Shown one piece after another: positions 4,828 through 30,492 of a stretch of DNA of 43,469 bases. This DNA comes from a virus. The notes below the pieces were generated by a model that saw nothing but the letters and a program-made list of their open reading frames with translations, was not told the origin of the DNA and ran no database searches. The DNA lies in the IMG/VR virus record IMGVR_UViG_3300044732_000656, positions 1 through 43,469 of that record. The stretch is one strand, 5' to 3'. Within the stretch, counting starts at the first letter, position 1, and every line of letters starts with the position of its first letter. Position numbers and translations under genes: made by a program.

Positions 4828-4840
4828 CTAAACATTGAAT

Positions 4841-5284
4841 ATGAAATTCTTGAAAATCCGAGACGTGAAGTCTCCAAATAGAGGAACTCCTCAATCTGCC
4901 GGAATCGATCTATACGTACCTGAAGATTTTACGAGTTCTTCTTTACAACCTGGTCAATCTATTCTCATTCCATCCGGACTTAAGGTGAATGTTCCTGCCA
5001 ATCACGTTCTCGTCGCCTTCAACAAATCTGGAGTTGCTACCAAAAAGAATCTACAAGTCGGCGCTTGTGTAATTGACGAGGATTATCAAGGAGAAATTCA
5101 CATCCATCTAATCAATGTTGGATGTGATCCAACTTCTATAGATCCAGGGGATAAGATCATTCAATTAGTTCTTCTTCCGACGGTTTATGAATCCGTCGAA
5201 ATTACAGAAACCGAAGAATCTCTCTGGAAAGGAAAGCTAACCGAAAGAGGTGGAGGTGGATTTGGCTCAACCGGAAACAAATAA
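4841..5284 (+). CDS. dut: dUTPase (dUTP pyrophosphatase, trimeric type)
   Basis: Hydrolyses dUTP to dUMP and pyrophosphate, keeping uracil out of phage DNA and supplying dUMP for dTTP. All five trimeric dUTPase motifs are visible in order: SAGIDLY, NKSGVA, GACVIDEDYQGEI, PGDKIIQLVL and the C-terminal RGGGGFGSTG. The length of 147 residues is typical. I use the ATG at 4841, two codons inside a possible TTG at 4835. It opens the nucleotide-metabolism and replication block, directly after a CATATAAT promoter-like motif. Confidence 0.95.
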   Translation: MKFLKIRDVKSPNRGTPQSAGIDLYVPEDFTSSSLQPGQSILIPSGLKVNVPANHVLVAFNKSGVATKKNLQVGACVIDEDYQGEIHIHLINVGCDPTSIDPGDKIIQLVLLPTVYESVEITETEESLWKGKLTERGGGGFGSTGNK

Positions 5285-5292
5285 TCATCAAA

Positions 5293-5523
5293 ATGAATCA
5301 ATCACTTAAAACTCCAGGCATAGACATTAATCAAACTAATGGTATCAAATGTGAAAAATGCGAATCCGACGTCTTTATTGAAGCATTTTTCCTTCGTCGA
5401 GCATCCAAACTATTAACAGGTAGTTCGCATGATACAATTATACCCATTCCGACGTTTCAATGCTCTATCTGCAAACATATAAATAAAGACTTCACTCCTA
5501 ATATCGAACAACATGATTCTTGA
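5293..5523 (+). CDS. Small zinc-ribbon protein
   Basis: A 76-residue protein with two Cys pairs, CEKCE near residues 20-24 and CSICK near residues 56-60, separated by about 32 residues. This is the layout of a zinc ribbon. Similar short proteins lie next to replication genes in T4-like cyanophages, from memory. Its stop (5521-5523) lies inside the start of the polymerase N-terminal gene, so the two are probably translationally coupled. Role unknown; nucleic-acid or protein binding is likely. Confidence 0.75.
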   Translation: MNQSLKTPGIDINQTNGIKCEKCESDVFIEAFFLRRASKLLTGSSHDTIIPIPTFQCSICKHINKDFTPNIEQHDS

Positions 5524-6892
5524 TATCGAAAACAACGGGTATTCTCTTCATATCTCATATTTCGATTCCGAAGGTAAAGTCAAAATCAAAAAATTCCCTA
5601 TATCAAATCCTCAAAATTGGACATTATGTTCAGCTAGCGATCCAAAAAGGTCGCTAGAGATTTCTAATTGGGATGGTAAATCTGTTAAGAAAGTTCAGGA
5701 GAAAGGCCTTAACAAATGGTCGATCTACGAATTTATTGATAACCTTCCACCAGAGGATCGAGATGAAATTACCGCATTGAATTTCCCTAAAGTTCAATCG
5801 GTTGACATTGAAACGGAAGTGATCGATTCGTTTCCGGACCCTTTAGTTGCTCGAGAAAGAATCACTACTATCGCTATATCGACAGAAAATAATTCTACTA
5901 TCGTTCTTGGATGGAAACCGATTGACAGACAACAAGAAAAAGCCATCTTCGATCAACACAGAGCCTATCTGAAAGATCATGGCGATTGGCAATTTAAGTA
6001 TATTTGTTTTGAAGATGAATATAACATGATGTTCACCTTCATCAATCGATTTCTTCCTAATTTCTCATTGATGATCGGTTGGAACTTTTTGAACTTTGAC
6101 TGGAAATACATATTCAATAGATGCAGTAAGTTAGGTATCGATCCATCAATGGCTTCTCCGTCCAAAAAACTACAAGGAAAGGAAAACTTTCCAATGCATA
6201 TTGGAATCGTCGATTATCTCGACATTTATCGGCGATGGGATCGAACCGTAGCCATCAAAGAAAACAACACTCTTGATTTCGTTTCGAATGCGGTATTAGG
6301 CGTGACTAAATTGAAATACGCAGGTACTCTTCAGGATCTATATGAAAAGGATTATGACAAATACATTCTTTACAATGCGATCGATTCTGCTCTTGTTTGT
6401 CTGATTCACAAAAAACTTAGAACTCTCGATTCAGTATTTTCTGTTTCTAATCTTTGCAATCTTTCTATATACAAAGCTTCTTCTGCAGTGAATCTAACAG
6501 AAGCGCTTCTTTGGAAAGGTTACTATTCAAGAAAACGAGTCATTGCCGATAGACGAATAGACATACAAAAAGGCGCATATGAAGGAGCGTACGTTAAAGA
6601 ACCAGAAAAAGGCATATTCCGAGCGGTTACTTGCTTCGATTATGCTTCTCTATATCCATCGATTATGCGTCAATACAATATTTCGCCTGAATCTTTCGTG
6701 ATGAAATCTACAAACGAATCGAAAACCGAAGAATATCGAAATAACAAAGATTACATTGCATCGGTTACCGGAGCTATATATGACAATCGAGAGGTTTCCG
6801 TTCTCAAAGAAATTTTGACGGATCTTTACACAAAACGAAAGCATTATAAGAGTCGACATCTAGAAATTGAAAGGCTGCTTGCAAAAAAATAA
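5513..6892 (+). CDS. 43: DNA polymerase B, N-terminal part (3'-5' exonuclease and palm motif A)
   Basis: A 459-residue protein that matches the front half of a family-B polymerase such as T4 gp43. Exonuclease motifs are intact: Exo I D98/E100 (VDIET), Exo II N191-D196 (GWNFLNFD), Exo III Y287-D291 (YNAID). The linker motif GAYEGAYVKEP follows at about 354-364 and palm motif A, DYASLYPSI, at 376-384 with catalytic Asp376. The chain stops in the fingers (ERLLAKK) before motif B. Motifs B and C are on the separate gene at 10695-11891, 3.8 kb away. It should proofread, but should need the second subunit for synthesis. No intein sequence is seen at its end. Confidence 0.93.
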   Translation: MILDIENNGYSLHISYFDSEGKVKIKKFPISNPQNWTLCSASDPKRSLEISNWDGKSVKKVQEKGLNKWSIYEFIDNLPPEDRDEITALNFPKVQSVDIETEVIDSFPDPLVARERITTIAISTENNSTIVLGWKPIDRQQEKAIFDQHRAYLKDHGDWQFKYICFEDEYNMMFTFINRFLPNFSLMIGWNFLNFDWKYIFNRCSKLGIDPSMASPSKKLQGKENFPMHIGIVDYLDIYRRWDRTVAIKENNTLDFVSNAVLGVTKLKYAGTLQDLYEKDYDKYILYNAIDSALVCLIHKKLRTLDSVFSVSNLCNLSIYKASSAVNLTEALLWKGYYSRKRVIADRRIDIQKGAYEGAYVKEPEKGIFRAVTCFDYASLYPSIMRQYNISPESFVMKSTNESKTEEYRNNKDYIASVTGAIYDNREVSVLKEILTDLYTKRKHYKSRHLEIERLLAKK

Positions 6893-6903
6893 GAAATCGA
6901 AAA

Positions 6904-7905
6904 ATGTCTAAGCTATTTACTGAAAGGATCGAATATAAACCGTTCGAATATCCTCAATACTACACAGAAGGCTGGCTTAAACAGGCTATGGCTTTCTGGC
7001 TTCATACGGAAATTCCAATGCAAGGAGATGTAAAGGATTGGAAAGAAAATCTACTTCCGCATGAGAAAAATATAGTCGGAAACATCCTTCTTGGATTTGC
7101 TCAAACCGAATGTGCAGTTTCTGATTATTGGACAGGATCTGTTACTAAATGGTTTCCTAAACATGAAATCAAACAAATGGCCATGATGTTTGGTTCTCAG
7201 GAAACTATACATGCGACTGCATATTCATATCTAAATGAGACTTTGGGTCTCGAGGATTTCTCGGCTTTTTTACATGAACCATCCATCGCAGAGAAATTCG
7301 AATTCTTATTAGCCACCGAATCAGATTACACACATGAAGATCTTCAAAAATCATCTAAAGCCAGGAAAGATGTTGCTCGCTCCATTGCCATTTTCTCTGC
7401 ATTCGCTGAAGGAGTTTCTCTTTATTCATCATTTGCTGTTCTTTATTCCTTTCCGATGAGAAACCTTCTAAAAGGTATCGGACAACAAATGAAATGGTCA
7501 GTAAGAGATGAATCTCTTCATTCGAAAATGGGATGTCAGCTATTTCGTCATATGTGCGAAGAATATCCAGAATTGAAGGATGAAGTTCGATACGAAGTTC
7601 AATATGCAGCTAAGCTCATGGTTGAAATGGAACATCGATTCATCGATAAGATGTTCGAAATGGGTGATCTAGAAAATCTAAGCGCATACGATCTAAAGAG
7701 CTTCATTTCTCGAAGAGCTAATGAAAAGCTAGCGGAATTAGGTTATCAACCGATATTTGAATATGATACCGATTCAGCTGATAAGTTAGAATGGTTTTAT
7801 CATCTTACTGGCGGCGTAACTCATACGGATTTTTTTGCTATTCGTTCAACTGATTATGCTAAAGCCGGAGAAGACGAAAATTGGGATGATTCTGAGATTT
7901 GGTAA
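6904..7905 (+). CDS. nrdB: Class I ribonucleotide reductase, beta subunit
   Basis: Makes the radical needed by NrdA for reduction of ribonucleotides to deoxyribonucleotides. Ferritin-like metal ligands are visible: E69 (QTEC), E100 and H103 (ETIH), E169 (FAEG), E203 and H206 (DESLH). A radical tyrosine candidate is Y107, four residues after H103. The first ligand is Glu where E. coli NrdB has Asp84. The acidic C-terminal tail ending DDSEIW is the usual NrdA-docking peptide. Length 333 is typical. It follows the polymerase N-half by 11 bases and precedes nrdA, the reverse of the common nrdA-nrdB order. Confidence 0.93.
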   Translation: MSKLFTERIEYKPFEYPQYYTEGWLKQAMAFWLHTEIPMQGDVKDWKENLLPHEKNIVGNILLGFAQTECAVSDYWTGSVTKWFPKHEIKQMAMMFGSQETIHATAYSYLNETLGLEDFSAFLHEPSIAEKFEFLLATESDYTHEDLQKSSKARKDVARSIAIFSAFAEGVSLYSSFAVLYSFPMRNLLKGIGQQMKWSVRDESLHSKMGCQLFRHMCEEYPELKDEVRYEVQYAAKLMVEMEHRFIDKMFEMGDLENLSAYDLKSFISRRANEKLAELGYQPIFEYDTDSADKLEWFYHLTGGVTHTDFFAIRSTDYAKAGEDENWDDSEIW

Positions 7906-7919
7906 AAAAAACTAAAAAG

Positions 7920-9722
7920 ATGACAGAAAGAGAAAGCGCAGATATTATAGCAAAAGAATTAGGTTGGGAACCTGGTGTAGATTATCCGATGTGGGGTCAC
8001 ACCGAGATTTATTTGAAGACTATCAGTAAAGGTTATTTACTTTCTGGAGAAAAACCTAAAGATGCATATTGGCGAGTGTGCACAACAATTGCCAAACGTC
8101 TAGGTAAACCGGAATTAGCTTCGAAATTTTTTGATTATGTTTTTAAGGGTTGGCTTAACCTCGCTACTCCTGTTCTTTCTAATACAGGAACCGAAAGAGG
8201 TTTACCTATCAGTTGTTTTGGTATTGATGTTGCTGATTCAATACATGATATAGGATCAAAGAATCTTGAAATGATGCTTCTCGCTAAACATGGTGGCGGT
8301 GTAGGTATTGGTATCAATATGATTCGACCGGCAGGCAGTGTGATCAAAGGAAATGGAACCTCTGATGGAATTGTTCCCTTCTGTAAAATATACGATTCAA
8401 CTATTCTTGCAACAAGTCAAGGATCTGTTCGACGAGGTGCGGCTTCAGTTAATATTGATATTGAGCATGGAGATTTCTGGGAGTGGTTAGAAATTCGAGA
8501 ACCAAAGGGTGATGTTAATCGCCAATCACTCAATCTTCATCAATGTGTTGTAGTTTCCGATGCTTTTATGCAAAAGGTTGAGCAGGGTGATAAGGATGCT
8601 AGATCTAAATGGACTGCAGTTATCCGTAAACGACGAGCTACTGGCGAACCTTATATTATGTTCAAAGGGAATGTCAATCGATCTAATCCAGAAGCGTATT
8701 CAAAGAATGGATTGAAGGTTTACATGACTAACATCTGTTCTGAGATTACTCTTCATACTGACGAATCTCACTCATTTGTTTGCTGTCTTTCTTCTATCAA
8801 TTTGGCTAAATATGATGAATGGAAAGATACCGATCTGATTTATACTGCAACATGGTTCTTGGACGGAGTTCTAGAAGAATTCATACAAAAAGCCAAGTAT
8901 ATGAGTGGGTTTGCTAATTCCGTTCGTTCGGCAGAAAAGGGCCGAGCTCTCGGCCTTGGAGTTCTCGGATGGCATACGTATTTACAAGATAAAGGAATTC
9001 CTTTTGAAGGTCTTCTTTCTCAATACGAGACTCGCAGAATATTCTCACAAATGAAAATGGAATGTGATCGAGCTAGTCGAGATATGTCTAGAGAATACGG
9101 CGAACCTCTTTGGTGTGTTGGTACCGGTATGAGAAACTCTCATACTCGAGCTATCGCTCCTACAGTCTCTAATTCTAAGTTATCCGGTAACATCTCGCCC
9201 GGAATTGAGCCTTGGGCTGCTAATGTATTTACTGAACAAACCGCAAAAGGGACATTTATTCGCAAAAATCCAACGTTAGAGAAATCTCTTAAGCGGATGA
9301 AAAGAAATACTCGAGAAATTTGGGATCAAATTTTGGCAGATGGAGGATCCGTTCAAGGCTTAGATTTCATAAACGATTGGTTCTTTTATGAAGGAACTTT
9401 GATTCATCGAGAAAAAATCGAAGAAGGAAAAATCTCGATAGATTTGTGTATTCCTTTTAAGGACGTCTTCAAGACCTTCAAAGAAATCAATCAATTAGAT
9501 CTAGTTAAACAAGCCGGATTGCGTCAACAATATATTGATCAAGCGGTTTCTTTGAATTTGGCTTTTCCAATGGAAGCAACTCCTAAATTCATCAATCAAG
9601 TTCACATGGAAGCTTATAAGCAAGGAATCAAAACACTTTACTATATGAGAACCGAATCTGTTCTTCGCGGTGATATTGCCGCAAAAGCTCTGGATGAAAA
9701 TTGTCTTAGCTGTGATGGGTAA
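7920..9722 (+). CDS. nrdA: Class I ribonucleotide reductase, alpha (catalytic) subunit, short form
   Basis: Reduces ribonucleoside diphosphates. Visible catalytic features: the first redox Cys in LPISCFG, the N-x-C-x-E radical triad in NICSEI, the partner Cys in FVCCLSS, the YY pair in LYYMRTES and a C-terminal CLSC pair for thioredoxin or glutaredoxin. At 600 residues it is shorter than the ~750 of E. coli NrdA and lacks an obvious N-terminal ATP-cone, so overall activity control by dATP is probably absent. I use the ATG at 7920 rather than the TTG at 7899, which would overlap nrdB. It sits between the two halves of the DNA polymerase. Confidence 0.93.
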   Translation: MTERESADIIAKELGWEPGVDYPMWGHTEIYLKTISKGYLLSGEKPKDAYWRVCTTIAKRLGKPELASKFFDYVFKGWLNLATPVLSNTGTERGLPISCFGIDVADSIHDIGSKNLEMMLLAKHGGGVGIGINMIRPAGSVIKGNGTSDGIVPFCKIYDSTILATSQGSVRRGAASVNIDIEHGDFWEWLEIREPKGDVNRQSLNLHQCVVVSDAFMQKVEQGDKDARSKWTAVIRKRRATGEPYIMFKGNVNRSNPEAYSKNGLKVYMTNICSEITLHTDESHSFVCCLSSINLAKYDEWKDTDLIYTATWFLDGVLEEFIQKAKYMSGFANSVRSAEKGRALGLGVLGWHTYLQDKGIPFEGLLSQYETRRIFSQMKMECDRASRDMSREYGEPLWCVGTGMRNSHTRAIAPTVSNSKLSGNISPGIEPWAANVFTEQTAKGTFIRKNPTLEKSLKRMKRNTREIWDQILADGGSVQGLDFINDWFFYEGTLIHREKIEEGKISIDLCIPFKDVFKTFKEINQLDLVKQAGLRQQYIDQAVSLNLAFPMEATPKFINQVHMEAYKQGIKTLYYMRTESVLRGDIAAKALDENCLSCDG

Positions 9723-9936
9723 CGTAATATATCGTTTAGATAAAACGAAAGGTCGTCAATATGTAGAATTCACTCCGGATTCAACTAATGATTGGTGGAT
9801 ATTAGTTCGTTGGATTGAGAAGAAATCTGGTAAGATCATAAGACAATACACCATCATACGAAAAGATATTCCTTCGTGGATTCAATATATGACAGGAGCA
9901 CTTCAATGGGAAATCAGCCAAATCAATAACTCATAA
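9715..9936 (+). CDS. Small hypothetical protein
   Basis: A 73-residue protein from the ATG at 9715, which overlaps the end of nrdA by eight bases. Upstream in-frame codons lie inside nrdA. It is basic and rich in Trp and Tyr (STNDWWILVRWIEKKSGKII), with a beta-strand look. No family recognised. Location between nrdA and the sliding clamp suggests early expression with the replication block. Confidence 0.65.
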   Translation: MGNVIYRLDKTKGRQYVEFTPDSTNDWWILVRWIEKKSGKIIRQYTIIRKDIPSWIQYMTGALQWEISQINNS

Positions 9937-9946
9937 AAAGTAAAAA

Positions 9947-10693
9947 ATGAAAATTACCGCTAAGAAAATATCCGTCCCTTATTTGTCAGCGATGCTCAAG
10001 AAGATGCTCCTAATGGATACATCTGTTTACTTGAACGTCGATCAAACTCGAGTCTTCTCTAACGTCTATACACCGACAAAGGATGTGGTTAAATCTTTCA
10101 CTCTGCCGATCGCTGATGTTTTTGAATTCGATGCTCCTTTAGATAAGACTATCAAAATGTCTTTCTTCTCAGGGGCTCGTCTTCTAAGTTGCATATCTTA
10201 CTTCGATCCACATAAGATACAAGCAGAAATTTCTTATTTTGAAGATCGAGATGAAGGTGTATTCTATGCAGAAAAAATCACATTTAAAGATCAAAAGCTT
10301 AAAATCGATGTGCTCTGTCAAGATATCTCTCTTGGATTTACCTCTATGTCGGATGAACAAACTGAACGAGCATTCTCTACTTCGGCCGAAGAATTCCGAT
10401 TCACAATTTCGCGAGAAGATCTCACTAAGGTTAATTCTCTTCTGACTATGGATAAAGGTGAACTTCTTCAAATCTATGGCGATTCATCTGGAATTCATTT
10501 CAAAACTGAAGCTTTTGATATGGTCGTCGACGATTCGGTTAAAATTGATGCAGAAGTAAAAAGCACATTCAAGACTTTCCTTGATCGAATCGATCGAGAA
10601 ACATATCAAATATCCGTTTGTTCTAACAAGATCGTTCTTTTCTCTCAAGAAACCTCGACTAACGCCGCTATTAACCTGGCAATAACTGAATAA
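9947..10693 (+). CDS. 45: Sliding clamp (DNA polymerase processivity factor, gp45-like)
   Basis: A 248-residue protein, close to T4 gp45 (228). There is no catalytic motif, as expected for a clamp. The sequence shows two similar halves of alternating strands with acidic surfaces: VYLNVDQTRVFSNVYTPTKD in the first, LLQIYGDSSGIHFKTEAFDM in the second. Position supports it: it directly precedes the polymerase C-terminal half (one base gap), whose last residues (VGSLF) look like a clamp-binding peptide. In T4, gp45 is also needed for late transcription with gp55, so it may link replication to late genes here. Confidence 0.8.
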   Translation: MKITAKKISVPYLSAMLKKMLLMDTSVYLNVDQTRVFSNVYTPTKDVVKSFTLPIADVFEFDAPLDKTIKMSFFSGARLLSCISYFDPHKIQAEISYFEDRDEGVFYAEKITFKDQKLKIDVLCQDISLGFTSMSDEQTERAFSTSAEEFRFTISREDLTKVNSLLTMDKGELLQIYGDSSGIHFKTEAFDMVVDDSVKIDAEVKSTFKTFLDRIDRETYQISVCSNKIVLFSQETSTNAAINLAITE

Positions 10694-10694
10694 A

Positions 10695-11891
10695 ATGATC
10701 GACGTTGAATCACTCACTCTCGATGATATCAAAAAACTTTCAAACACGTCTTTATCAGACGAAGATCAATCACTACTCCGCGATTACTCTCGTAAATGTT
10801 CGGCATATGAGCAAAGTATAAAGCTCATCATTAATTCCATCTACGGAGCTTTTGCCAATGAGTATTTTCACTTCTATAATATAGCTATTGCTGAAACGGT
10901 AACTCTTCAAGGACAAGATGCTATTAAGTTTACTGAAAAGATGGTCGAAAAGTACTTTCATGAGTATTTTCATCGAGATCGACCGCTTCTTCGAGAATTA
11001 GGTGTTCCTGATGAAGTCGAGGTTTCTCCTATCAAAGGAACGATTTGGAAATATACTGATACTGATTCTGGTTATCTCATCTTTGAAGAATGTATGGATG
11101 TTGTTAATTGGACAGGATCTGTTAAGGATTTCGTTCTTCGGTTGAATTCATTTCGTTTAGCTGATTTCTTGAAAAAAGTTCTTAATGATTATGCCAAAAG
11201 TTTCGATACGGAAAATTATTTAGATTTTGAATTAGAAACTATCGCAGAAAACGCTATTTGGGTAGCTAAAAAGAAATACGTTCAAAACATCGTTTGGAAG
11301 GATGGTAAAGATTATGATCCTCTAACATACATCAAAACCACCGGCCTAGAAATTATTCAATCGAGCACTCCTGCGTTTTGTCGCCAAAAGTTAATTGATG
11401 CAGTGAAGTATATCTTCTCAAAGAAGAAACTTTCTATCGATGATAATTCTGAGTTAGTAGCTCTTGTTAAAGAAATCAAGCGAGAATTTAAGCTATCTAA
11501 CATCGAAAAGATCTCGATGCCTAGAGGAATATCTGATTACAATAAATTCGTGATCAACGATACAAATGAATTCGTTCTCAATAAAGGATGTCCAATTCAC
11601 ATACGTGCCGGAGCATATCATAACTTTATTCTTAATCAAGACACTAGACTAAAAGGAAAATATCAGCTCATTCAAGGCGGAGATAAGATTCGATTCTATC
11701 ATTCTATTGATCCGATTTGCGACGTTTTTGGCTTTAAGCCAGGATCATATCCAACAGAATTCGCGCCGAAGATGAACATAGAAGCTCAATTTAGATCGAC
11801 GATTCTCGATCCACTAAATCGAATTATCGTTCCTGCAGGTCTACCACCACTATCACCGTCGCTAGCTTACACTGTAGGATCTCTTTTTTGA
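10695..11891 (+). CDS. 43: DNA polymerase B, C-terminal part (fingers, palm motifs B and C, thumb)
   Basis: A 398-residue protein holding the back half of a gp43-like polymerase. Motif B is KLIINSIYGA (K43 to G51), motif C YTDTDS with D122 and D124, and the K-K-K-Y motif follows at about residue 200 (AKKKYVQN). Later TTGLEIIQSSTP and GCPIHIRAG match T4 gp43 thumb-region motifs. The last residues, YTVGSLF, resemble the clamp-binding tail of T4 gp43 (LDFLFG). The first 40 residues complete the fingers helix begun by the gene ending at 6892. It has its own ATG one base after the clamp gene. It should work only with the other half. Confidence 0.93.
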   Translation: MIDVESLTLDDIKKLSNTSLSDEDQSLLRDYSRKCSAYEQSIKLIINSIYGAFANEYFHFYNIAIAETVTLQGQDAIKFTEKMVEKYFHEYFHRDRPLLRELGVPDEVEVSPIKGTIWKYTDTDSGYLIFEECMDVVNWTGSVKDFVLRLNSFRLADFLKKVLNDYAKSFDTENYLDFELETIAENAIWVAKKKYVQNIVWKDGKDYDPLTYIKTTGLEIIQSSTPAFCRQKLIDAVKYIFSKKKLSIDDNSELVALVKEIKREFKLSNIEKISMPRGISDYNKFVINDTNEFVLNKGCPIHIRAGAYHNFILNQDTRLKGKYQLIQGGDKIRFYHSIDPICDVFGFKPGSYPTEFAPKMNIEAQFRSTILDPLNRIIVPAGLPPLSPSLAYTVGSLF

Positions 11892-11955: not shown

Positions 11956-13158
11956 ATGAGTAAAGAATTTTCAATAGGAGAAATACAAAAAGAGCTAAGA
12001 AGAATAAATCCATTTGGCGATGTCATTTCTAAATCAGAATTTTCAAAAATTACGGAATGGATCGACACCGGCAATTATCACCTTAATGCCGTTTTCAGCG
12101 GAGATATGTTTGGTGGTATTCCTAACAATCGAACCATATGTTTAGCCGGAGATTCAGGAACTGGAAAAACATTTTTGCTCCTTAATATATGTCGAGAAGC
12201 TCAAAAGAAAGGTTATTATGTGATCTATTACGACACTGAAGGTGCTGTGGATGTTGATAACATTCAAAACTTCGGGGTGGATCCAGATAAATTCGATCAT
12301 CAACCACTTTCAGATCTAGCTAAATTCCGTACTTCTATTACGACTCTTATCAAGAAGATGATGGAAGCTAAAGAGAAAGGTTACAAGACTCCTAAAATCA
12401 TGGTTTGTCTTGATTCTCTCGGAATGCTTGCTACCACAAAAGAGATTGATGATGCAATAAGCGGAAATACTGCCGCTGATATGACTCGTGCTAAGATGAT
12501 TCGTTCTCTTTTCCGAATCATCACATCAGATCTTACTGGATTAGGAATTCCATTTGTATTTACGAACCACACATATGCGTCGACTGGAATGTTCCCTACC
12601 GTTAATCTTTCTGGTGGAGGCGGTCTGATTTACTCGGCATCTGTTATTCTTGCGCTCTCTAAAGCACAAATCAAAGAAGGTACCGTACAGACTGGTATCA
12701 TCGTTTCAGTTAAGACTCTGAAAAATCGATTCGGAAAGCCAATTCCTATCAAATTCCATATTCGTTGGGATAAAGGAATGAATCGATTCATTGGTATGGA
12801 AGAATATATGTCATGGGAAAATTGCGGGATTCAACGAGGAAACATGTACGGAGCAAAGGAATTCGAGAAATGGACTGATGCGGTTAAGGCAACCGCTAAA
12901 CCTTTCACGAATCCTAAAGATGGTGAAACTTGGTACTTCGTTCCTAAAGAAACGGCTAGATACTACATCGTTAAGCATCTAGGAGAAGGAGTTACAGCTC
13001 AGGATCTATTCACTGAAAGAGTTTGGTCGCAGGAAGTTCTCGAACAAATCAACGAGAAATGCATCAAACCTAAATTCAGTTATGGTTCCGAAATCGAAGG
13101 GGATGCTATCGATGAATTCTTGATTGATAATGAATTGACTTCAACTGATGCTGAATAA
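11956..13158 (+). CDS. uvsX: UvsX, RecA-like recombinase
   Basis: Strand-exchange protein for recombination-dependent replication and repair. Walker A GDSGTGKT is at residues 65-72, and Walker B ends in D153 (IMVCLDS). The DNA-binding loop region (FTNHTYASTG, NLSGGGG) follows. Length 400 compares with 391 in T4 UvsX. The N-terminus KEFSIGEIQKELRRINPFG is typical of UvsX rather than bacterial RecA. It leads a recombination and replication cluster with the helicase and the gp47/46-like nuclease. The next gene starts inside its last codons. Confidence 0.93.
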   Translation: MSKEFSIGEIQKELRRINPFGDVISKSEFSKITEWIDTGNYHLNAVFSGDMFGGIPNNRTICLAGDSGTGKTFLLLNICREAQKKGYYVIYYDTEGAVDVDNIQNFGVDPDKFDHQPLSDLAKFRTSITTLIKKMMEAKEKGYKTPKIMVCLDSLGMLATTKEIDDAISGNTAADMTRAKMIRSLFRIITSDLTGLGIPFVFTNHTYASTGMFPTVNLSGGGGLIYSASVILALSKAQIKEGTVQTGIIVSVKTLKNRFGKPIPIKFHIRWDKGMNRFIGMEEYMSWENCGIQRGNMYGAKEFEKWTDAVKATAKPFTNPKDGETWYFVPKETARYYIVKHLGEGVTAQDLFTERVWSQEVLEQINEKCIKPKFSYGSEIEGDAIDEFLIDNELTSTDAE

Positions 13159-13474
13159 GGAAGATATTAAGATCAAATACATCATAGGAACTTTTAGAGA
13201 TGATCCAAATTATCCATCGGATGAGGATTTTCTTTACTTAATCGAGAATTGGTATTGGAACGAAGGCGGAAAGGCTTTCATTCATCAATATCGAGGTATT
13301 GATGAATCTAATGGTTTGATATTTGCTGATTCAATTCTTCGAGATAAACTGAATGGTGACGAGGAGGCTACTAAGAGCCTCCTCACATCACTTTTAGATA
13401 GAGGTGAGATAAAATTAAATAAGCGAACGAAGTTCACAAATTACTACGAAATCATAAAAAAGAAAAACGTATGA
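13148..13474 (+). CDS. Hypothetical protein between uvsX and helicase
   Basis: A 108-residue protein, ATG inside the end of uvsX and stop overlapping the helicase ATG (ATGA). It contains DPNYPSDEDFLYLIENWYWN near the start and a basic C-terminus (KLNKRTKFTNYYEIIKKKNV). I recognise no family. Its tight coupling to the helicase gene makes a replication-accessory role possible, such as helicase loading. However, it is half the size of T4 gp59 and shows no clear similarity. Confidence 0.75.
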   Translation: MLNKEDIKIKYIIGTFRDDPNYPSDEDFLYLIENWYWNEGGKAFIHQYRGIDESNGLIFADSILRDKLNGDEEATKSLLTSLLDRGEIKLNKRTKFTNYYEIIKKKNV

Positions 13475-14769
13475 TTGAATCAGCTGATTTCGAAAAGGTC
13501 TTTTATCTCTTCGTGAGAAACAATCCTGGATATATGCGAAATGTCAAGGATTCTTATTTTGATTCTAATGAGATAGGAACTCTCTATACTATCACCAAAC
13601 AGTTTCATGACCGATTTCAACAAATTCCATCTAAAGATCAATTAAAGCTCGTTGCCAAACAAGATAAATTTCGAGACAAGATCAACGAAAATCTCATCGA
13701 TATCATCTTTGATGAGCCTATCGAATCTTATGATCCTGAATGGGTGACTGAAACCTGTCAATCTTGGGTTCTTTGGAAATCTCTCGATCGATCTCTTATT
13801 GACACTCTTGAATATGTTAAGACGGTCAAGGTTACTCCTAATAATGTTAAAGAGATAATCAATAAGGTTAAAACATTAATCAATGAAAGAAACAACATTT
13901 CTTTCAATCAAGATCTTGGTAAAAATTTCTTTGATGCAAACAATCACATCCCGGAAGCAAATTCTAAGATCACTACTTGTCATAATTGGATAGATCATTT
14001 TACTGGAGGTTATCGAACAAAAGGTCTTATCGTTTATGCCGGAGAACAAAACATCGGTAAATCAATTTGGCTTGCTAATGATGCTGTTAATTATGTTCGA
14101 GCTGGCTATGATGTTGCCGTAATCACTGCTGAAATGGCAGATATTGATTTTATTCATCGTATCGGTTCAAATATGTTGAATGTTAAAGTCTCTGAATACG
14201 AAAAGCTTTCAAAACAGCCAGGATTCATTCATCAAAGATTATCACAAATCACAAACGGAGTAATTCCCTCGGGTAATCTATACGTCAAAGAATACCCGAC
14301 ATCTCAGGCTACTGTTCCTGAAATCGAATCTTATCTTCATGAGTTAGAAAAAGTTAATGGAATAAAGTTAAAAGTCGTAATCATTGATTATATCAACATT
14401 CTATCTAACTTCCGAAATCCAAACTCTGAAAACACATACATGAAGATCAAGCAAATTGCAGAAGATCTTCGAGCAATGGCAGTCAGAAACGAATGGGTCG
14501 TAATTAGTGCGACACAAATCAATCGAGGCGGCTATGATTCAACAGAACTTAATATGGGACATATCGCTGAATCTGCTGGACTATCACATACCGCTGACAT
14601 GATTTATGGAATCATTCAAGATTCTTCAATGCTAATGAATAACGAATATTGGCTAAAGATTCTCAAGGTCCGAAATGGAACAGGAAAAAATAGCCGATGC
14701 ATGTATCGAATCGATTACTCCTATATGAGATTGACCGAAAGTGATACTGTTATAAACACAACAAACTAA
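13471..14769 (+). CDS. 41: Replicative DNA helicase, DnaB family (gp41-like)
   Basis: A 432-residue hexameric 5'-3' helicase that unwinds ahead of the fork. Walker A is GEQNIGKS at residues 191-198, Walker B the VVIIDYINIL strand near 308-317. The downstream DnaB motif with VISATQINRGG and the arginine-bearing ILKVRNG follow. The N-terminal 140 residues form a helical domain as in T4 gp41 (475 residues). It overlaps the small gene before it and is two bases from the next. No separate primase is visible in the window. Confidence 0.92.
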   Translation: MIESADFEKVFYLFVRNNPGYMRNVKDSYFDSNEIGTLYTITKQFHDRFQQIPSKDQLKLVAKQDKFRDKINENLIDIIFDEPIESYDPEWVTETCQSWVLWKSLDRSLIDTLEYVKTVKVTPNNVKEIINKVKTLINERNNISFNQDLGKNFFDANNHIPEANSKITTCHNWIDHFTGGYRTKGLIVYAGEQNIGKSIWLANDAVNYVRAGYDVAVITAEMADIDFIHRIGSNMLNVKVSEYEKLSKQPGFIHQRLSQITNGVIPSGNLYVKEYPTSQATVPEIESYLHELEKVNGIKLKVVIIDYINILSNFRNPNSENTYMKIKQIAEDLRAMAVRNEWVVISATQINRGGYDSTELNMGHIAESAGLSHTADMIYGIIQDSSMLMNNEYWLKILKVRNGTGKNSRCMYRIDYSYMRLTESDTVINTTN

Positions 14770-14770
14770 C

Positions 14771-15250
14771 ATGATTGATGAAGAAAGATTAGAAGGTGAG
14801 GAGACTGAACCCGAACCAGAATTGGAATTAAATCGAGACAAGATATTTGGTAACGATTATGGATCATCGGATTTCGATCTTTCGACTACGAAATTTTCGA
14901 TAGAAGATTCGCATCGAGAGAAGAGGCTTGATGAGATAATAGACGAAACGGTTGCAAAAGATTTGGTTAGTTCATTGATACTTTTACACCCAAGGTTTCA
15001 TCGAATGACTTTACCGGTCGAAGACGGTGAATATCTGAAAGTTAATAAGAGTGAAATCAATGAAATCTACTCATATGTTGTAAGCAATCTACCGAACAAA
15101 CCAAAGATCGAGATATTTTCGACTCTAACGGATTTGTATGACATATCTCCAGAAAAATTCTATGAATCACTGTCAAATACTTTCAAAACAGAATTGATTA
15201 TAGAACTTAGAAATAGAGGATACCTGAAAAGACGAAATTTCCTATTCTGA
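14771..15250 (+). CDS. Acidic hypothetical protein with clamp-binding-like C-terminus
   Basis: A 159-residue protein. The first 25 residues are strongly acidic (EGEETEPEPELELN). The last ~50 residues are helical (FSTLTDLYDISPEKFYESLS), ending YLKRRNFLF. That last tetrapeptide resembles the hydrophobic clamp-binding tails of T4 gp43, gp33 and gp55 (DFLF/DFLL type). A gp33-like co-activator or another clamp client is a possibility that I cannot prove. It lies between helicase and gp47 and its stop overlaps the gp47 ATG. Confidence 0.75.
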   Translation: MIDEERLEGEETEPEPELELNRDKIFGNDYGSSDFDLSTTKFSIEDSHREKRLDEIIDETVAKDLVSSLILLHPRFHRMTLPVEDGEYLKVNKSEINEIYSYVVSNLPNKPKIEIFSTLTDLYDISPEKFYESLSNTFKTELIIELRNRGYLKRRNFLF

Positions 15251-16344
15251 TGAAAATAGAAGCAAAACGTGCGTTTATAGTTTCCGATACTCACTTTGGA
15301 GCTAGATCAAATTCGATTGAGTGGCTTGATATGATGAAGGATTGGTTCAACTCAGACTTCATTCCAAAGGTAAGAGAACACTATCAACCTGGAGATATAC
15401 TCATTCATTGCGGAGACGTCTTTGACAATCGACAATCCGTCAATCTTCTAGTCCTTCACGAAGGAATTCGTTTATTTGAAGAACTTTCTTCTATTTTTGT
15501 TGATGGAGTTTATGTCATCGCAGGTAATCATGATGTCATGAGAAAAACCAGTAATGAAGTTTCATCTTTAGATGTTCTGAAATATATTCCACGAGTGCAT
15601 ATCATCAAAGAGCCGATCGTTGCGGAATTTCCTAATACTAAGGCGCTTTTTATGCCATGGAGAAGCAATGATGAAGAAGAAAAGCTATGCATTAAAGAAA
15701 ATGAGACTCACTTATGTCATTACATGTTTTGTCACACCAATATCCGACATCTCAAATTTGATAATTCTCGAGATGTAGAAGAGGGATTAAATCTAGATGA
15801 TTTGATCAAGTTTAGAAGGGTTTATTCAGGACATATTCATTGGGGACAGAGCCGAGGAAATGTCACCATGATAGGTAATCCCTATCAAATGACTAGATCG
15901 GATGCTGGTAACAAAAAGGGATGGTATATTCTCGATCTGAATGATGGAAAAGAGCAATTCTTTGAAAACGAATACTCTCCGAAATTTATTCGAATTCATC
16001 TCAATCGATTCCTTAACTCCTCTCTTGGTGAATTAAAGGATATCTGTAAGAACAACCGAGTTGATCTTTATGTACCTTCTGATTATCTTCTTCGCTATCA
16101 AATTACGTCGATTATCGATGAGCTAAGTTCAATAACAAAAAAACTAGAGGTGATTCCGTTTGAGGAAGGAATTCATGAATCGATTGAGATTGGTGAAGAT
16201 GAATCTGAATCAACATTTAATATCTTTGGACTTTGTCGAAAATACGTAGATTCTATGAAAAGTCTAGATCATGGATCAAAAGAAAGAGTCATCAACAAAA
16301 TCAATCAACTATACGTTGACGTTGTTAAAGAAGAAAGACTATGA
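15250..16344 (+). CDS. 47: Recombination nuclease subunit, SbcD/Mre11-like (gp47-like)
   Basis: Metallophosphoesterase partner of the gp46 ATPase, resecting DNA ends to start recombination-dependent replication and degrade host DNA. Motifs in order: D13 and H15 (SDTHFG), D56 (GDVFD), N93-H94-D95 (GNHD), the H in CHTN and the GHIHWG pair near residue 196. Length 364 fits T4 gp47 (339). The C-terminal 100 residues would carry the gp46-binding helix. ATG overlaps the upstream TGA and the stop overlaps the gp46 start. Confidence 0.93.
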   Translation: MKIEAKRAFIVSDTHFGARSNSIEWLDMMKDWFNSDFIPKVREHYQPGDILIHCGDVFDNRQSVNLLVLHEGIRLFEELSSIFVDGVYVIAGNHDVMRKTSNEVSSLDVLKYIPRVHIIKEPIVAEFPNTKALFMPWRSNDEEEKLCIKENETHLCHYMFCHTNIRHLKFDNSRDVEEGLNLDDLIKFRRVYSGHIHWGQSRGNVTMIGNPYQMTRSDAGNKKGWYILDLNDGKEQFFENEYSPKFIRIHLNRFLNSSLGELKDICKNNRVDLYVPSDYLLRYQITSIIDELSSITKKLEVIPFEEGIHESIEIGEDESESTFNIFGLCRKYVDSMKSLDHGSKERVINKINQLYVDVVKEERL

Positions 16345-18011
16345 GGATACAATCAATCGAATGGAAAAATTTCAATTCATATGGTAACGTTATTCAGAGA
16401 ATTGATTTTGATTCCGACTTAGGCGAGCTTTATTTGTTAATGGGAGGAAATGGACATGGAAAAAGTACCATATCCGAAGTGATAACCTTTGCTCTTTATG
16501 GAAGAATCGAACGCAAGAACAAAGCGGATCTACCTAATCGAATCAACAAAAATCTTTGGTGTAGAATAGTCATTAGATCTAAAAATAGAACAGTAGAAAT
16601 CGTTCGAGGAATTTCTCCTGGTCTATTCGAAGTGATAATTGACGGAACTCCTTTCGACACTTCAGGAAACACTAATGTTCAGGATTATCTAGAGTTAGAG
16701 ATATTTGATATCCCGTATCAAGTGTTCAAAAATATCATCGTTCTATCAATCAATGATTTTCGATCATTTTTAACTATGTCTCCAGGTGATAAGAGAAACA
16801 TCGTAGATAGACTATTTGGATTTACCGTCATCAATCAGATGAAGGAATCTATTAGGAATGAGCGACGAACAATTAAAGAAAGTGTCAAAACTGTCACAGA
16901 TGAGCTAGGAGTTTTAGAAGAATCCATTCAATCAATTCAAGCTAAAATCTATAACCTAGAAAAAGACAAATCCGAAGATCGAATTAAATTAGCCAAAGAA
17001 TATAGAGAGAAAATTGTTGAACTTTTAGAATCAAAGAAAAAAATTGATGAGCTTCTAGAAAAACTACGACACAAAGATCAAGAAATCAAATCTAAATTCA
17101 CGGAAAGTCGTGAAAATTCAAGCGCGTTGAGTTATGAAATCAAAACAATTGATGAAAAACTCAAATTGTACGAAAATTCACAATGTCCGACTTGTGGATC
17201 ATCACTTGAAGGTGAATCTCATCAAAATATAAAGATTGATCTAGGTTCTCTGAGAAAAACAAAAGATGACGAATTAGTACAAATCAAATCTCAGATGATG
17301 GAAATTCAAAATAATCTAGATTTGATAGGATCTAAATTGAAAGATCTCAACGAAAATTCGATTCGATCAACTCTTAGAATCAATCAATATCGATCTGAGA
17401 TAGAGAATCTTCTCAAAGAAAACAAAGAGGCGGATGCTGGATATTTGTCTCAGTTGATTCAAGAAAATCAATCAAAGATATCTGATAAGAGAAGTTCACA
17501 AGACAAGTCTCGAAGCGAGGATTCATTTTTAGAGATTGTGGAATCAGTTCTTGGTGATGATGGTGTTAAGAATTTGGCTACCAAGACTATTTTGCCAACT
17601 CTTAATCAGTCTATCATCAATATGTCTAAGCAAATACATCTGCCCTATTCTATTCGCTTCAACGAGAAGTTTGATTGCATTGTGCAATCTCTCGGAGAGG
17701 AAATCAATCCTCGAAGTATGTCAACTGGTGAAAGAAAAAAAGCAGATTTCGTTATCATCATTGCACTTCTTAAACTATTAAAGATTCGATACCCTTCGTT
17801 GAATATACTTTTTCTGGATGAAATCTTCTCTTCTGTTGATTCTGCTGGCATCTACGAAATTATTAAGATTCTAAATGAAGTGTCTAAAGAGAATCAAATA
17901 AACACATGGGTTATCAATCATACTGAGCTACCTATGGAGCTTTTCGATAAACGAGTAGAAGCCGTAAGAGAAGGAGGATTCTCTAAGCTTATCATCGAGA
18001 AGATCTCTTAA
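16341..18011 (+). CDS. 46: Recombination nuclease subunit, SbcC/Rad50-like ATPase (gp46-like)
   Basis: ABC-type ATPase that forms the resection complex with gp47. Walker A GGNGHGKS is at residues 35-42. Two coiled-coil arms flank a zinc hook, CPTCG, near residue 285. The ABC signature STGERKKADF and Walker B LNILFLDEIFSS are near the C-terminus, followed by the H-loop INHTE. Length 556 matches T4 gp46 (560). It begins four bases before the end of gene 47 (ATGA). This ends the replication block; the tail gene follows after a promoter motif. Confidence 0.94.
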   Translation: MRIQSIEWKNFNSYGNVIQRIDFDSDLGELYLLMGGNGHGKSTISEVITFALYGRIERKNKADLPNRINKNLWCRIVIRSKNRTVEIVRGISPGLFEVIIDGTPFDTSGNTNVQDYLELEIFDIPYQVFKNIIVLSINDFRSFLTMSPGDKRNIVDRLFGFTVINQMKESIRNERRTIKESVKTVTDELGVLEESIQSIQAKIYNLEKDKSEDRIKLAKEYREKIVELLESKKKIDELLEKLRHKDQEIKSKFTESRENSSALSYEIKTIDEKLKLYENSQCPTCGSSLEGESHQNIKIDLGSLRKTKDDELVQIKSQMMEIQNNLDLIGSKLKDLNENSIRSTLRINQYRSEIENLLKENKEADAGYLSQLIQENQSKISDKRSSQDKSRSEDSFLEIVESVLGDDGVKNLATKTILPTLNQSIINMSKQIHLPYSIRFNEKFDCIVQSLGEEINPRSMSTGERKKADFVIIIALLKLLKIRYPSLNILFLDEIFSSVDSAGIYEIIKILNEVSKENQINTWVINHTELPMELFDKRVEAVREGGFSKLIIEKIS

Positions 18012-28632: not shown

Positions 28633-30492
28633 ATGAATAATAAGTATCTTCTCGTAGTTGAGAGATCGGAAAGCCAACTCGCCGTCGCAAGAACAAACGA
28701 TAAGTATGTTCTTGAGGGAGTTTTCACCGAGATTGGAGTTAAAAACAACAATCAAAGGGTATACGATGAAAAAGAAGTAATCCCTCACGTAAACGAACTA
28801 CAAAAGCTTTGCGCAGGTAATAAACTTCTTGGAGAATTAGACCATCCTAAATCATTCGACATTTCTTTGAAGAACGCTTCTCATGTGATAGAAGAACTTC
28901 ATTACGATAAGGAGAAGAAACAGGTTATTGGACGAATTCGTCTTCTAAATACCGAAGCAGGTAAAAACGCTATGGCGTTGGTTGATGCAGGCGTCCCTCT
29001 ACATATTTCTAGTAGAGCCGCTGGAATCGTAGAAAGTAACGGTCACGTAAAAATCAAAAAGATGTTCACATATGACCTTGTTGCTACTCCTGGATTCTCA
29101 AACGCCGAGCTAAAAAGAGTTAATGAAAGTTTTGGATTAGCTGAAGATGACAATCTTCAGCTTTTCGAGGTTCCTTGGACCATCAAAGATACAGAATCGA
29201 ATAACGAAACCGAAATAAAAGAAAACAAAGAAATGGACAATTCCAAATACATTTCAATCGAGGATTTCAATCAATATACTAAACTCGTCAAGAACGAATT
29301 TGAGGCTATGAAATCAAAGATTCAAGAATCCGCTAAAAATCCTAATGAAGGAAAGAATGTTAACGAAGGTTTGATCAAATACACTGAAGCGGTCGCAAAG
29401 CAAGTTAATGCTTTACAGGAATCAATCGAAGGATTGATTTCTCATAATGATTACATCGTTGAAAATCTCGAACGAGTAAAAGATTACGCTGAGTTAGTTG
29501 GAGAGAAATCTAATCTAGGTATCAATTACTCAGAGAAGCTCGCAGAATCCGTTGATCATCTAATCGAATACACTAAGGTGGTTGCTGAAAAGACAGATCA
29601 ATCAATCGAATACACCAAGATGATTGCTGAAAAGACAGATCAATCAATCGAATATGGAAAATATGTAGCTAACGAATCGTCTAATCGTTGGAATTATCAA
29701 GAACATCTCAACGAGCAACTTGACAAAGTAATTTCTCATAATGATTATATAGTTGAAGGTGTTGATTCAGTAATTAAGTACATCGAATATGGTGTTAAAG
29801 AAACTGAAAAGCTTCAATCATTCGTTGATCATACGGTTAAAACCATCAATGAAAACGGGTTTGTAAATAGCGAAGAAAAGACTAATACCAAAGAGGTTAA
29901 ATTAGTTGAAAATCAGACCAAAGGAGTTACTAAGTCTATTAGCGAATCCATTAACGTCGATTCGGATGATGAATTCAAGAAAAACATTACGACTCAATTA
30001 AATGCTATTCTTGAATCCGCTAAAACTGAAAAAGAACAAACTATCAACAAAACTTATCATTTCTTGAATTTCTTAGGTGAAAGTCGAAGAAATCAATTCG
30101 ATTCTCTTACTCCAGAAATGAAGCAAACTGTAGTAGATAAGTTCTCTAGTACTTCTTATTTTGGATCTGCTGATGCAGAAAGAATTTTCGAATCGGTATT
30201 CATTCAACCAGTTGCTAAGCTAGATTGGTTGGCTAATATGCCTTCTAAATACGTTTCTTCATGGAACTCTCTTAACGAAAATCAGAAAACCGCAATCAAA
30301 GCTCAGGCTTCGATTCGTCGCCTAGAAACTCAATATCAAATCGATGATTTCTGGGCAAATCGCGAGCTTCGAACGGTTAAGATAGAAAACGAAAATCTAG
30401 AAAGACCTATCAACGAATCATCTGCTTACGAAACGAACAGTGAATATATGGATGCCGTTCGTGAAGGTTTCCGACGTCGATTCAAAAGATAA
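28633..30492 (+). CDS. 21: Prohead maturation protease fused to a coiled-coil scaffold
   Basis: Residues 1-165 match T4 gp21: GVFTEIGVKNNNQRVYD, then LLGELDHP with likely catalytic His71, and VPLHISSRAAG with likely nucleophile Ser127. T4 gp21 ends after about 210 residues, but here ~450 more follow. These include an extended coiled coil with 14-residue repeats (SIEYTKMIAEKTDQ) and duplicated ISHNDYIVE blocks, then a helical C-terminal domain ending in a basic helix (AVREGFRRRFKR). That tail resembles capsid-binding ends of scaffolds, so this gene may encode both protease and core (gp22-like) functions. It should cut the tagged proteins after [LIV]-x-E. Confidence 0.88.
   Translation: MNNKYLLVVERSESQLAVARTNDKYVLEGVFTEIGVKNNNQRVYDEKEVIPHVNELQKLCAGNKLLGELDHPKSFDISLKNASHVIEELHYDKEKKQVIGRIRLLNTEAGKNAMALVDAGVPLHISSRAAGIVESNGHVKIKKMFTYDLVATPGFSNAELKRVNESFGLAEDDNLQLFEVPWTIKDTESNNETEIKENKEMDNSKYISIEDFNQYTKLVKNEFEAMKSKIQESAKNPNEGKNVNEGLIKYTEAVAKQVNALQESIEGLISHNDYIVENLERVKDYAELVGEKSNLGINYSEKLAESVDHLIEYTKVVAEKTDQSIEYTKMIAEKTDQSIEYGKYVANESSNRWNYQEHLNEQLDKVISHNDYIVEGVDSVIKYIEYGVKETEKLQSFVDHTVKTINENGFVNSEEKTNTKEVKLVENQTKGVTKSISESINVDSDDEFKKNITTQLNAILESAKTEKEQTINKTYHFLNFLGESRRNQFDSLTPEMKQTVVDKFSSTSYFGSADAERIFESVFIQPVAKLDWLANMPSKYVSSWNSLNENQKTAIKAQASIRRLETQYQIDDFWANRELRTVKIENENLERPINESSAYETNSEYMDAVREGFRRRFKR
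29562..29645 (+). repeat. Two tandem 42-base repeats in the protease-scaffold gene
   Basis: Units 29562-29603 and 29604-29645 differ at only a few bases and encode SIEYTK[V/M][V/I]AEKTDQ; a third degenerate unit follows. Fourteen residues equals two heptads, so repeat number would set coiled-coil length. The nine-residue block ISHNDYIVE also occurs twice in the same gene, at about 29437 and 29731. Confidence 0.85.

Follow-up and report, generated by a model that had tools for sequence, protein, structure and literature searches.

We analyzed the 43,469-base virus record IMGVR_UViG_3300044732_000656 (hereafter the window), a fragment rather than a full genome, in which a family B DNA polymerase (PolB) of the T4 type is encoded by two genes, polN and polC, both on the plus strand. 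The product of polN (5513..6892, 459 amino acids; PF03104, PF00136 16-137, phrog_2062) is the N-terminal half, with the exonuclease, motif A and the first helix of the fingers, and the product of polC (10695..11891, 398 amino acids; PF00136 155-352, phrog_1918) is the C-terminal half, with the second fingers helix, motifs B and C, and the thumb. In the PHROG database, the halves correspond to two distinct half-length polymerase families, and both also match the full-length family phrog_262. An initial annotation of this DNA, which had placed the exonuclease and motif A on one gene and motifs B and C with the thumb on another 3.8 kb away, was exact in its coordinates, the gap being 3,802 bases (6893-10694). 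It was equally right that the catalytic residues are complete. The Exo I-III acidic residues and motifs A, B and C of the T4 gp43 type are all present, distributed over the two genes: DIET (residue 98), NFDW (194), YNAID (287), DYASLYPS (376) and TKRKHYK (440) in polN, and KLIINSIYG (43), YTDTDS (120) and KKKY (192) in polC. Exonuclease and motif A residues are invariant in 19 homologues of polN, as are those of motif B (including its lysine) and motif C in 16 homologues of polC.

Aligned to gp43 chains of the T4/RB69 type, polN reaches residues 485-492 and polC starts at 521-528, which places the break at the tip of the fingers (end at ~492, start at ~528). Alignment of the junctions shows that it falls between the two fingers helices, as in gp43 of Aeromonas phages 44RR and 25, and that the end of polN and the start of polC form short helix-like tails.

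The slot between the halves contains, as initially annotated, nrdB, nrdA, a small open reading frame (ORF) and a sliding clamp gene, all on the plus strand. The first two encode the small and large subunits of a class I ribonucleotide reductase (RNR): nrdB (6904..7905; PF00268, E 9.7e-59) and nrdA (7899..9722; PF02867, E 1e-88; alpha subunit in NCBIfam), which overlaps nrdB by 7 bases if a TTG start is used. The small conserved ORF (9715..9936) encodes 73 amino acids from the ATG at 9715, a better start than that of the mechanical listing (9670-9936), and has counterparts, 29-39% identical, upstream of the clamp in several relatives. The last gene in the slot (9947..10693, 248 amino acids), with 1 base from its end to the start of polC, has no Pfam or PHROG match. 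Nevertheless, its product is, judging from its predicted fold, a sliding clamp of the PCNA/gp45 type. Its AlphaFold model, with a predicted local distance difference test score (pLDDT) of 89.5, matches 477 chains of the PDB at E<=0.001 in Foldseek, the 50 best matches listed being all clamps or clamp-like rings, and its counterparts lie between the halves in relatives. It was this fold search that decided the assignment; a sequence-only search of the PDB with the clamp alignment returned one clamp chain at E 1.8, which is not significant.

The split is the rule in the lineage of the window. Four IMG/VR scans with the window proteins and alignments, together with public phage records, yielded 193 loci, which formed 111 clusters once loci with a common 300-base word were merged. 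In the 89 clusters of IMG/VR loci and the window, both halves are found in one locus in 40 and in different loci of one cluster in 6, polC alone in 24 and polN alone in 17 (at locus or contig ends), and an unsplit polymerase in 2, a ratio biased toward split forms because proteins and profiles of split polymerases served to find the IMG/VR loci, and relatives were limited to the best 80 of 441 and the best 80 of 568. The 40 local clusters with both halves in one locus show, without exception, one strand and the order polN, RNR, clamp, polC, with 2,649-9,229 bases (median 4,074) between the halves. This recurrence rules out an assembly rearrangement as the cause of the split, and the intervening cassette, which the initial annotation considered unusual, is the norm. 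Consistently, an RNR gene lies at most 400 bases downstream of polN in 14/14 polN-only loci with enough sequence, and a clamp gene upstream of polC in 30/30 such polC-only loci; in twelve further records, the polN and polC matches are ~14-17 kb apart. Separate N- and C-terminal polymerase matches were found in 16/21, 6/6 and 23/40 whole records, the others being three unsplit outgroups (L022, L023 and MaF61), phage RM378 and 18 single-match fragments.

The fingertip break is common to Sphingomonas phage PAU, Chryseobacterium phages MA9V-1 and MA9V-2, Tenacibaculum phage PTm1, LR756500 and the Lak megaphages, and metagenomic phages of 462-735 kb also have it. In the huge phages LR756504, LR756502, LR745206 and LR756501, and in Lak-A2, the halves are at least 100 kb apart and on opposite strands. 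An unsplit polymerase is found in T4, cyanophage S-ShM2, MaF61, L022, L023 and L196. The closest intact counterpart that we found is that of L196 (146-2683), on a contig from a bacterial metagenome-assembled genome (MAG), at most 40% identical to the split forms and followed directly by uvsX, and L023 (7307-11071) encodes an unsplit polymerase of 1,255 amino acids with an in-frame intein-like insert within motif B. Scanning genome contigs of bacteria and archaea recovered 3 relatives, one of them in a Bacteroidetes MAG, which is a weak hint as to the hosts. A polymerase cut through its catalytic domain is the norm in a large, mostly uncultivated phage group that includes Lak and other huge phages. 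Part of this is already known—PHROG has a separate family for each half, several GenBank records annotate them, and a T4-type polymerase in two parts has been described—and in the open-access literature that we searched we found no description of split PolB as a clade-wide trait. There is also a pitfall for annotation: either half alone is called DNA polymerase, and surveys may therefore count two.

Comparison of these sequences indicates that polN and polC very probably encode the subunits of a single, two-part replicative polymerase of family B. First, both halves are under strong purifying selection, with ratios of nonsynonymous to synonymous substitution rates (dN/dS) of 0.018-0.086 for polN and polC in 12 close pairs, the synonymous rate of polC being saturated in 2/12. 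Second, the halves diverge together. Distances in polN and polC correlate with r=0.94 over 946 pairs of 44 taxa, with similar behavior for the clamp, dnaB and gp46, and nrdA distances hardly track them (r=0.32 over 465 pairs, restricted to taxa whose large subunit best matched the nrdA of the window); since the pairs are not independent, r is descriptive only. Third, a complete second polymerase, flagged at the outset as an outcome contrary to a stable two-subunit enzyme, was not detected: none of 15 records—the window (G000), ten long IMG/VR relatives of up to 294 kb and four named phages—has a Pfam match to PolA or DnaE, PF00136 has just two matches in the whole window (polN and polC), and no second PolB was found in the whole records searched. 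Because of this selection, co-divergence and lack of a PolA or DnaE match, polN and polC would have to supply the polymerase of the phage, most simply as a non-covalent heterodimer. The stable two-subunit enzyme proposed initially is thus well supported by comparison, and a physical heterodimer with polymerase activity is by far the likeliest reading. Several points nevertheless count against it. The window is a 43-kb fragment whose own genome could hold more, long relatives standing in for it, and a Pfam search could miss a very divergent polymerase. The AlphaFold model of polC alone is poor (pLDDT 51) and was not used; we list it here as well, although it neither supports nor refutes the heterodimer.

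A heterodimer of polN and polC might work as follows. The two halves would be translated separately and associate without a peptide bond. From polN would come one of the two fingers helices together with the 3'-5' exonuclease and the aspartate of motif A; polC would add the remaining helix with the lysine of motif B, as well as the thumb and the aspartates of motif C. The cut itself lies in the fingers-tip loop, distant from the active site, a position at which tolerance to interruption is known for a T4-type polymerase. The clamp and RNR genes form, together with both halves, a conserved gene block for replication and deoxynucleoside triphosphate supply, in which the RNR is exchanged as a cassette. 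Such a natural heterodimeric family B enzyme would be of value for study and engineering.

Other ways in which the halves might work fare much worse. They could be uncoupled, polN being a separate exonuclease and polC having a new role, with a host polymerase copying the phage. RM378 illustrates that exonuclease and polymerase parts can exist on separate genes. However, with motif A and a fingers helix on polN and motifs B and C on polC, the motifs invariant in both families make sense only in one active site, and the phage retains clamp, clamp loader, helicase and UvsX, which renders uncoupling very unlikely. Protein trans-splicing, in which a split intein joins the halves into one chain as in fractured genes, has a parallel in related phages: polC of PTm1, LR756500 and Lak-A2 is interrupted a second time, at motif C, by split inteins accompanied by free-standing endonucleases, and the RNR of LR756500 is broken in this way too. 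Yet at the fingertip the hallmark of fractured genes, an N-intein and a C-intein at the broken ends, is absent. Intein models match neither half of the window, nor polN of LR756500, PAU, PTm1 or Lak, in a scan that did detect the motif C pieces, including those of Lak polC, as positive controls; the broken ends carry the short helix-like tails instead. The initial statement that there is no intein, nor a homing endonuclease gene, between the halves of the window was correct, and trans-splicing is extremely unlikely. Joining at the RNA level, by trans-splicing or a giant intron, has a precedent of sorts in the group I intron in gene 43B of Aeromonas phage 25, but is just as hard to credit given that Rfam at the gathering threshold finds no family in the window, that complete genes with their own starts and stops lie between the halves, and that the opposite strands of the halves in the five phages named above exclude joining in cis.

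Our phylogenetic analysis shows that the fingertip has been broken more than once. In the main tree (42 rows and 859 columns, twenty rows being left out here and in the topology test), the window belongs to a clade of 36 rows—34 split rows, MaF61 and L196—whose separation from T4, S-ShM2, L022, L023 and the split polymerases of the Aeromonas pair is supported at 100/100. The polN and polC of the window cluster with sequences from PAU, Lak and huge phages. The Aeromonas pair joins T4 (100/100), and the fingertip was therefore broken at least twice independently. We do not claim a single origin within the clade of the window. A first tree, which included MaF61 but lacked L196 and from which nine rows were left out, mostly near-duplicates, had a single split group (Shimodaira–Hasegawa-like approximate likelihood ratio test 79), which was broken up once the unsplit L196 was added. 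In the best tree, there are three changes of split label, with the unsplit MaF61 and L196 inside the clade and long branches involved, and a tree uniting all split rows in a single clade is not rejected (approximately unbiased test, p-AU 0.238).

How the split arose is a matter on which we can only be tentative. One explanation, to which we give slightly less than an even chance, is that a homing endonuclease broke the gene at the fingertip and was later lost, the gap being filled by other genes. LR756500 has a gene for a DUF7487-type endonuclease-like protein immediately next to the fingertip end of polN; such a gene closely follows polN in Lak-A2 and Lak-C1, directly precedes polC in PTm1 and, in L198, lies before polC on the opposite strand. 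A TnpB gene precedes polC in MA9V-2, an I-TevI-like gene does so in L015, and in Aeromonas phage 25 genes 43A and 43B are separated by an annotated homing endonuclease. Furthermore, GIY-YIG or I-TevI-like genes occur in the slots of L009, L015, L058 and L144, and elements of the same class with split inteins interrupt polC once more, at motif C, in PTm1, LR756500 and Lak-A2 and, judging from position, also in L111. However, DUF7487-type genes are abundant (19 matches in LR756500, 15 each in Lak-A2 and Lak-C1), and homing genes gather near replication genes (PMC10448857), so this adjacency may reflect later colonization. No such gene was found at the junctions of PAU and MA9V-1, nor at the sides inspected in LR756501, LR756502 and LR756504. 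We therefore keep adjacency as a suggestion rather than proof of origin, such genes being frequent in three of these records; it suggests that the break was caused or used by homing elements, none of which occurs in the window. Two loci illustrate the reach of such elements. The TnpB gene of MA9V-2 (L037, 9693-10859) is absent at that spot in MA9V-1, and in L111 (1975-14907) polC, uvsX, dnaB and gp46 are each interrupted by Vsr-type endonuclease-like genes of the PTm1 kind, making four fractured replication genes on one contig.

Alternatively, the N-terminal half may have been relocated, or the clamp may have been included in a duplication after which complementary halves were lost, turning clamp-polB-uvsX into polN-clamp-polC. 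The clamp gene lies upstream of gene 43 in T4 and 44RR, polB is followed directly by uvsX in the unsplit L196 and S-ShM2, as polC is in the window—which is why polC has probably kept the old place—and the clamp lies between the halves even in phages without an RNR there. Still, a rearrangement of this kind is on balance unlikely, since the slots of 40 loci contain no leftovers of polN or polC at E<0.1, and the 300 bases preceding polC, compared in 82 loci, contain none of polN beyond chance; the best scores there were matched by 1-3/100 shuffles, as expected among 82 tests. The PF00136 match of one record (G031) extends upstream of polC across stop codons, but the sequence there has no resemblance to polN (L129 scoring at shuffle level), and the extension was dismissed as noise.

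An RNR in the slot is not a defining feature of the split, since PAU, MA9V-1 and PTm1 have split halves without one. Across relatives, the gene order is constant in the 40 local clusters, but the RNR part is variable and is missing in those three phages. It is a class I enzyme in 32 of these clusters, B12-dependent RTPR-like in 7 and NrdJ-like class II in 1, and NrdJ is also found in LR756500; the 32 class I clusters include a second kind of nrdB-nrdA pair, 32% and 38% identical to that of the window, in L005 and L019. The slot RNR is swappable, with two class I and two class II kinds. The three RNR classes need at least 4 changes among 34 labelled rows of the first tree, and L012, the nearest tree neighbor of the window, has an RTPR-type RNR. 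An exchange is visible in the close phages L004 (5316-8152) and L005 (5154-7789), whose class I pairs differ: their DNA is 94% identical up to the polN stop and again just past the nrdA stop, and the RNR genes share at most one 193-base stretch at 68% identity. The slot shows different RNR classes replacing one another in place, the polymerase staying. It holds other peculiarities as well. In LR756500 (L025, 11360-15531), a split intein also divides the class II RNR into pieces that flank an endonuclease-like gene, and L063 (10323-12403) has two additional slot genes encoding 353 and 339 amino acids with a by-eye likeness to central-metabolism enzymes. One could imagine that the split is useful and hence kept—the active site forming only with both subunits, and polN, RNR, clamp and polC forming one physical complex in which RNRs (class I or B12-dependent class II) are swapped to suit host and environment. 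We consider this improbable; if true, the fingertip-split architecture would be adaptive and would define a large clade of phages, having been reached on at least two occasions.

Around the halves, the window carries further genes for replication and recombination on the plus strand. A dUTPase gene (4835..5284; PF00692) is the upstream neighbor of polN, in close relatives too, and uvsX (11956..13158; PF00154, phrog_97) is the downstream neighbor of polC. They are followed by a DnaB-type replicative helicase of the gp41 type (13471..14769; PF03796) and by gp47-like (15250-16344) and gp46-like (16341-18011) recombination nucleases, identified by phmmer matches to annotated gp47 and gp46 of Aeromonas phage 44RR. 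The order is dUTPase, small ORF, polN, nrdB, nrdA, small ORF, clamp, polC, uvsX, small ORF, helicase, then the gp47-like and gp46-like genes. A T4-like block with portal, head protease, major head protein, head closure, end protector and clamp loader is also recognizable. The head protease ORF of the gp21 type (28633-30492) encodes 619 amino acids, its family match being confined to the first 267.

Comparison with known systems highlights both similarities and differences. In group 2.2 jumbo phages, a minimal DNA polymerase III alpha is split into two distant genes (Iyer et al. 2021, PMC7824862); this is another polymerase family, and split PolB goes without mention in the accessible part of that source. 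In Rhodothermus phage RM378, exonuclease and polymerase are on separate genes, as initially noted, but the cut is between the two domains, unlike in the window, where motif A stays on polN. The initial annotation also named a split PolB in Methanothermobacter. Closer to the window are PAU (gp105/gp110), MA9V-1/2 and PTm1, with a fingertip split, a clamp-like gene between the halves and both halves recorded as DNA polymerase in GenBank, one PTm1 piece being annotated as a split precursor. They differ from it in having no RNR in the slot and halves 25-32% identical to those of the window, and PTm1 also in its polC, which a split intein interrupts a second time at motif C. For MA9V-1, a table lists both polymerase ORFs and, in the portion available, does not term them split (PMC10537231), and in the jumbo Pseudomonas phage MIJ3 PolB is likewise in two ORFs (PMC6892783). 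The precedent named in the initial annotation, split gp43 in Aeromonas phages, holds at the very same fingertip: gp43A and gp43B of 44RR2.8t (498 + 391 amino acids) and 25 are a PolB cut at the tip of the fingers and annotated for the replisome polymerase. The 43A-43B enzyme, with Petrov 2010 as its primary paper, is the closest experimental precedent for the two genes of the window. According to a review (PMC2988022), the split products of phage 25 co-purify and have polymerase activity. Unlike in the window, with its 3,802 bases holding RNR and clamp genes, the Aeromonas halves are parted by 49 bases (44RR) or a homing endonuclease gene (25), and they stem from an independent event in the T4 branch rather than from common descent. 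The group of the window therefore represents a second, independent breakage at the same fingertip.

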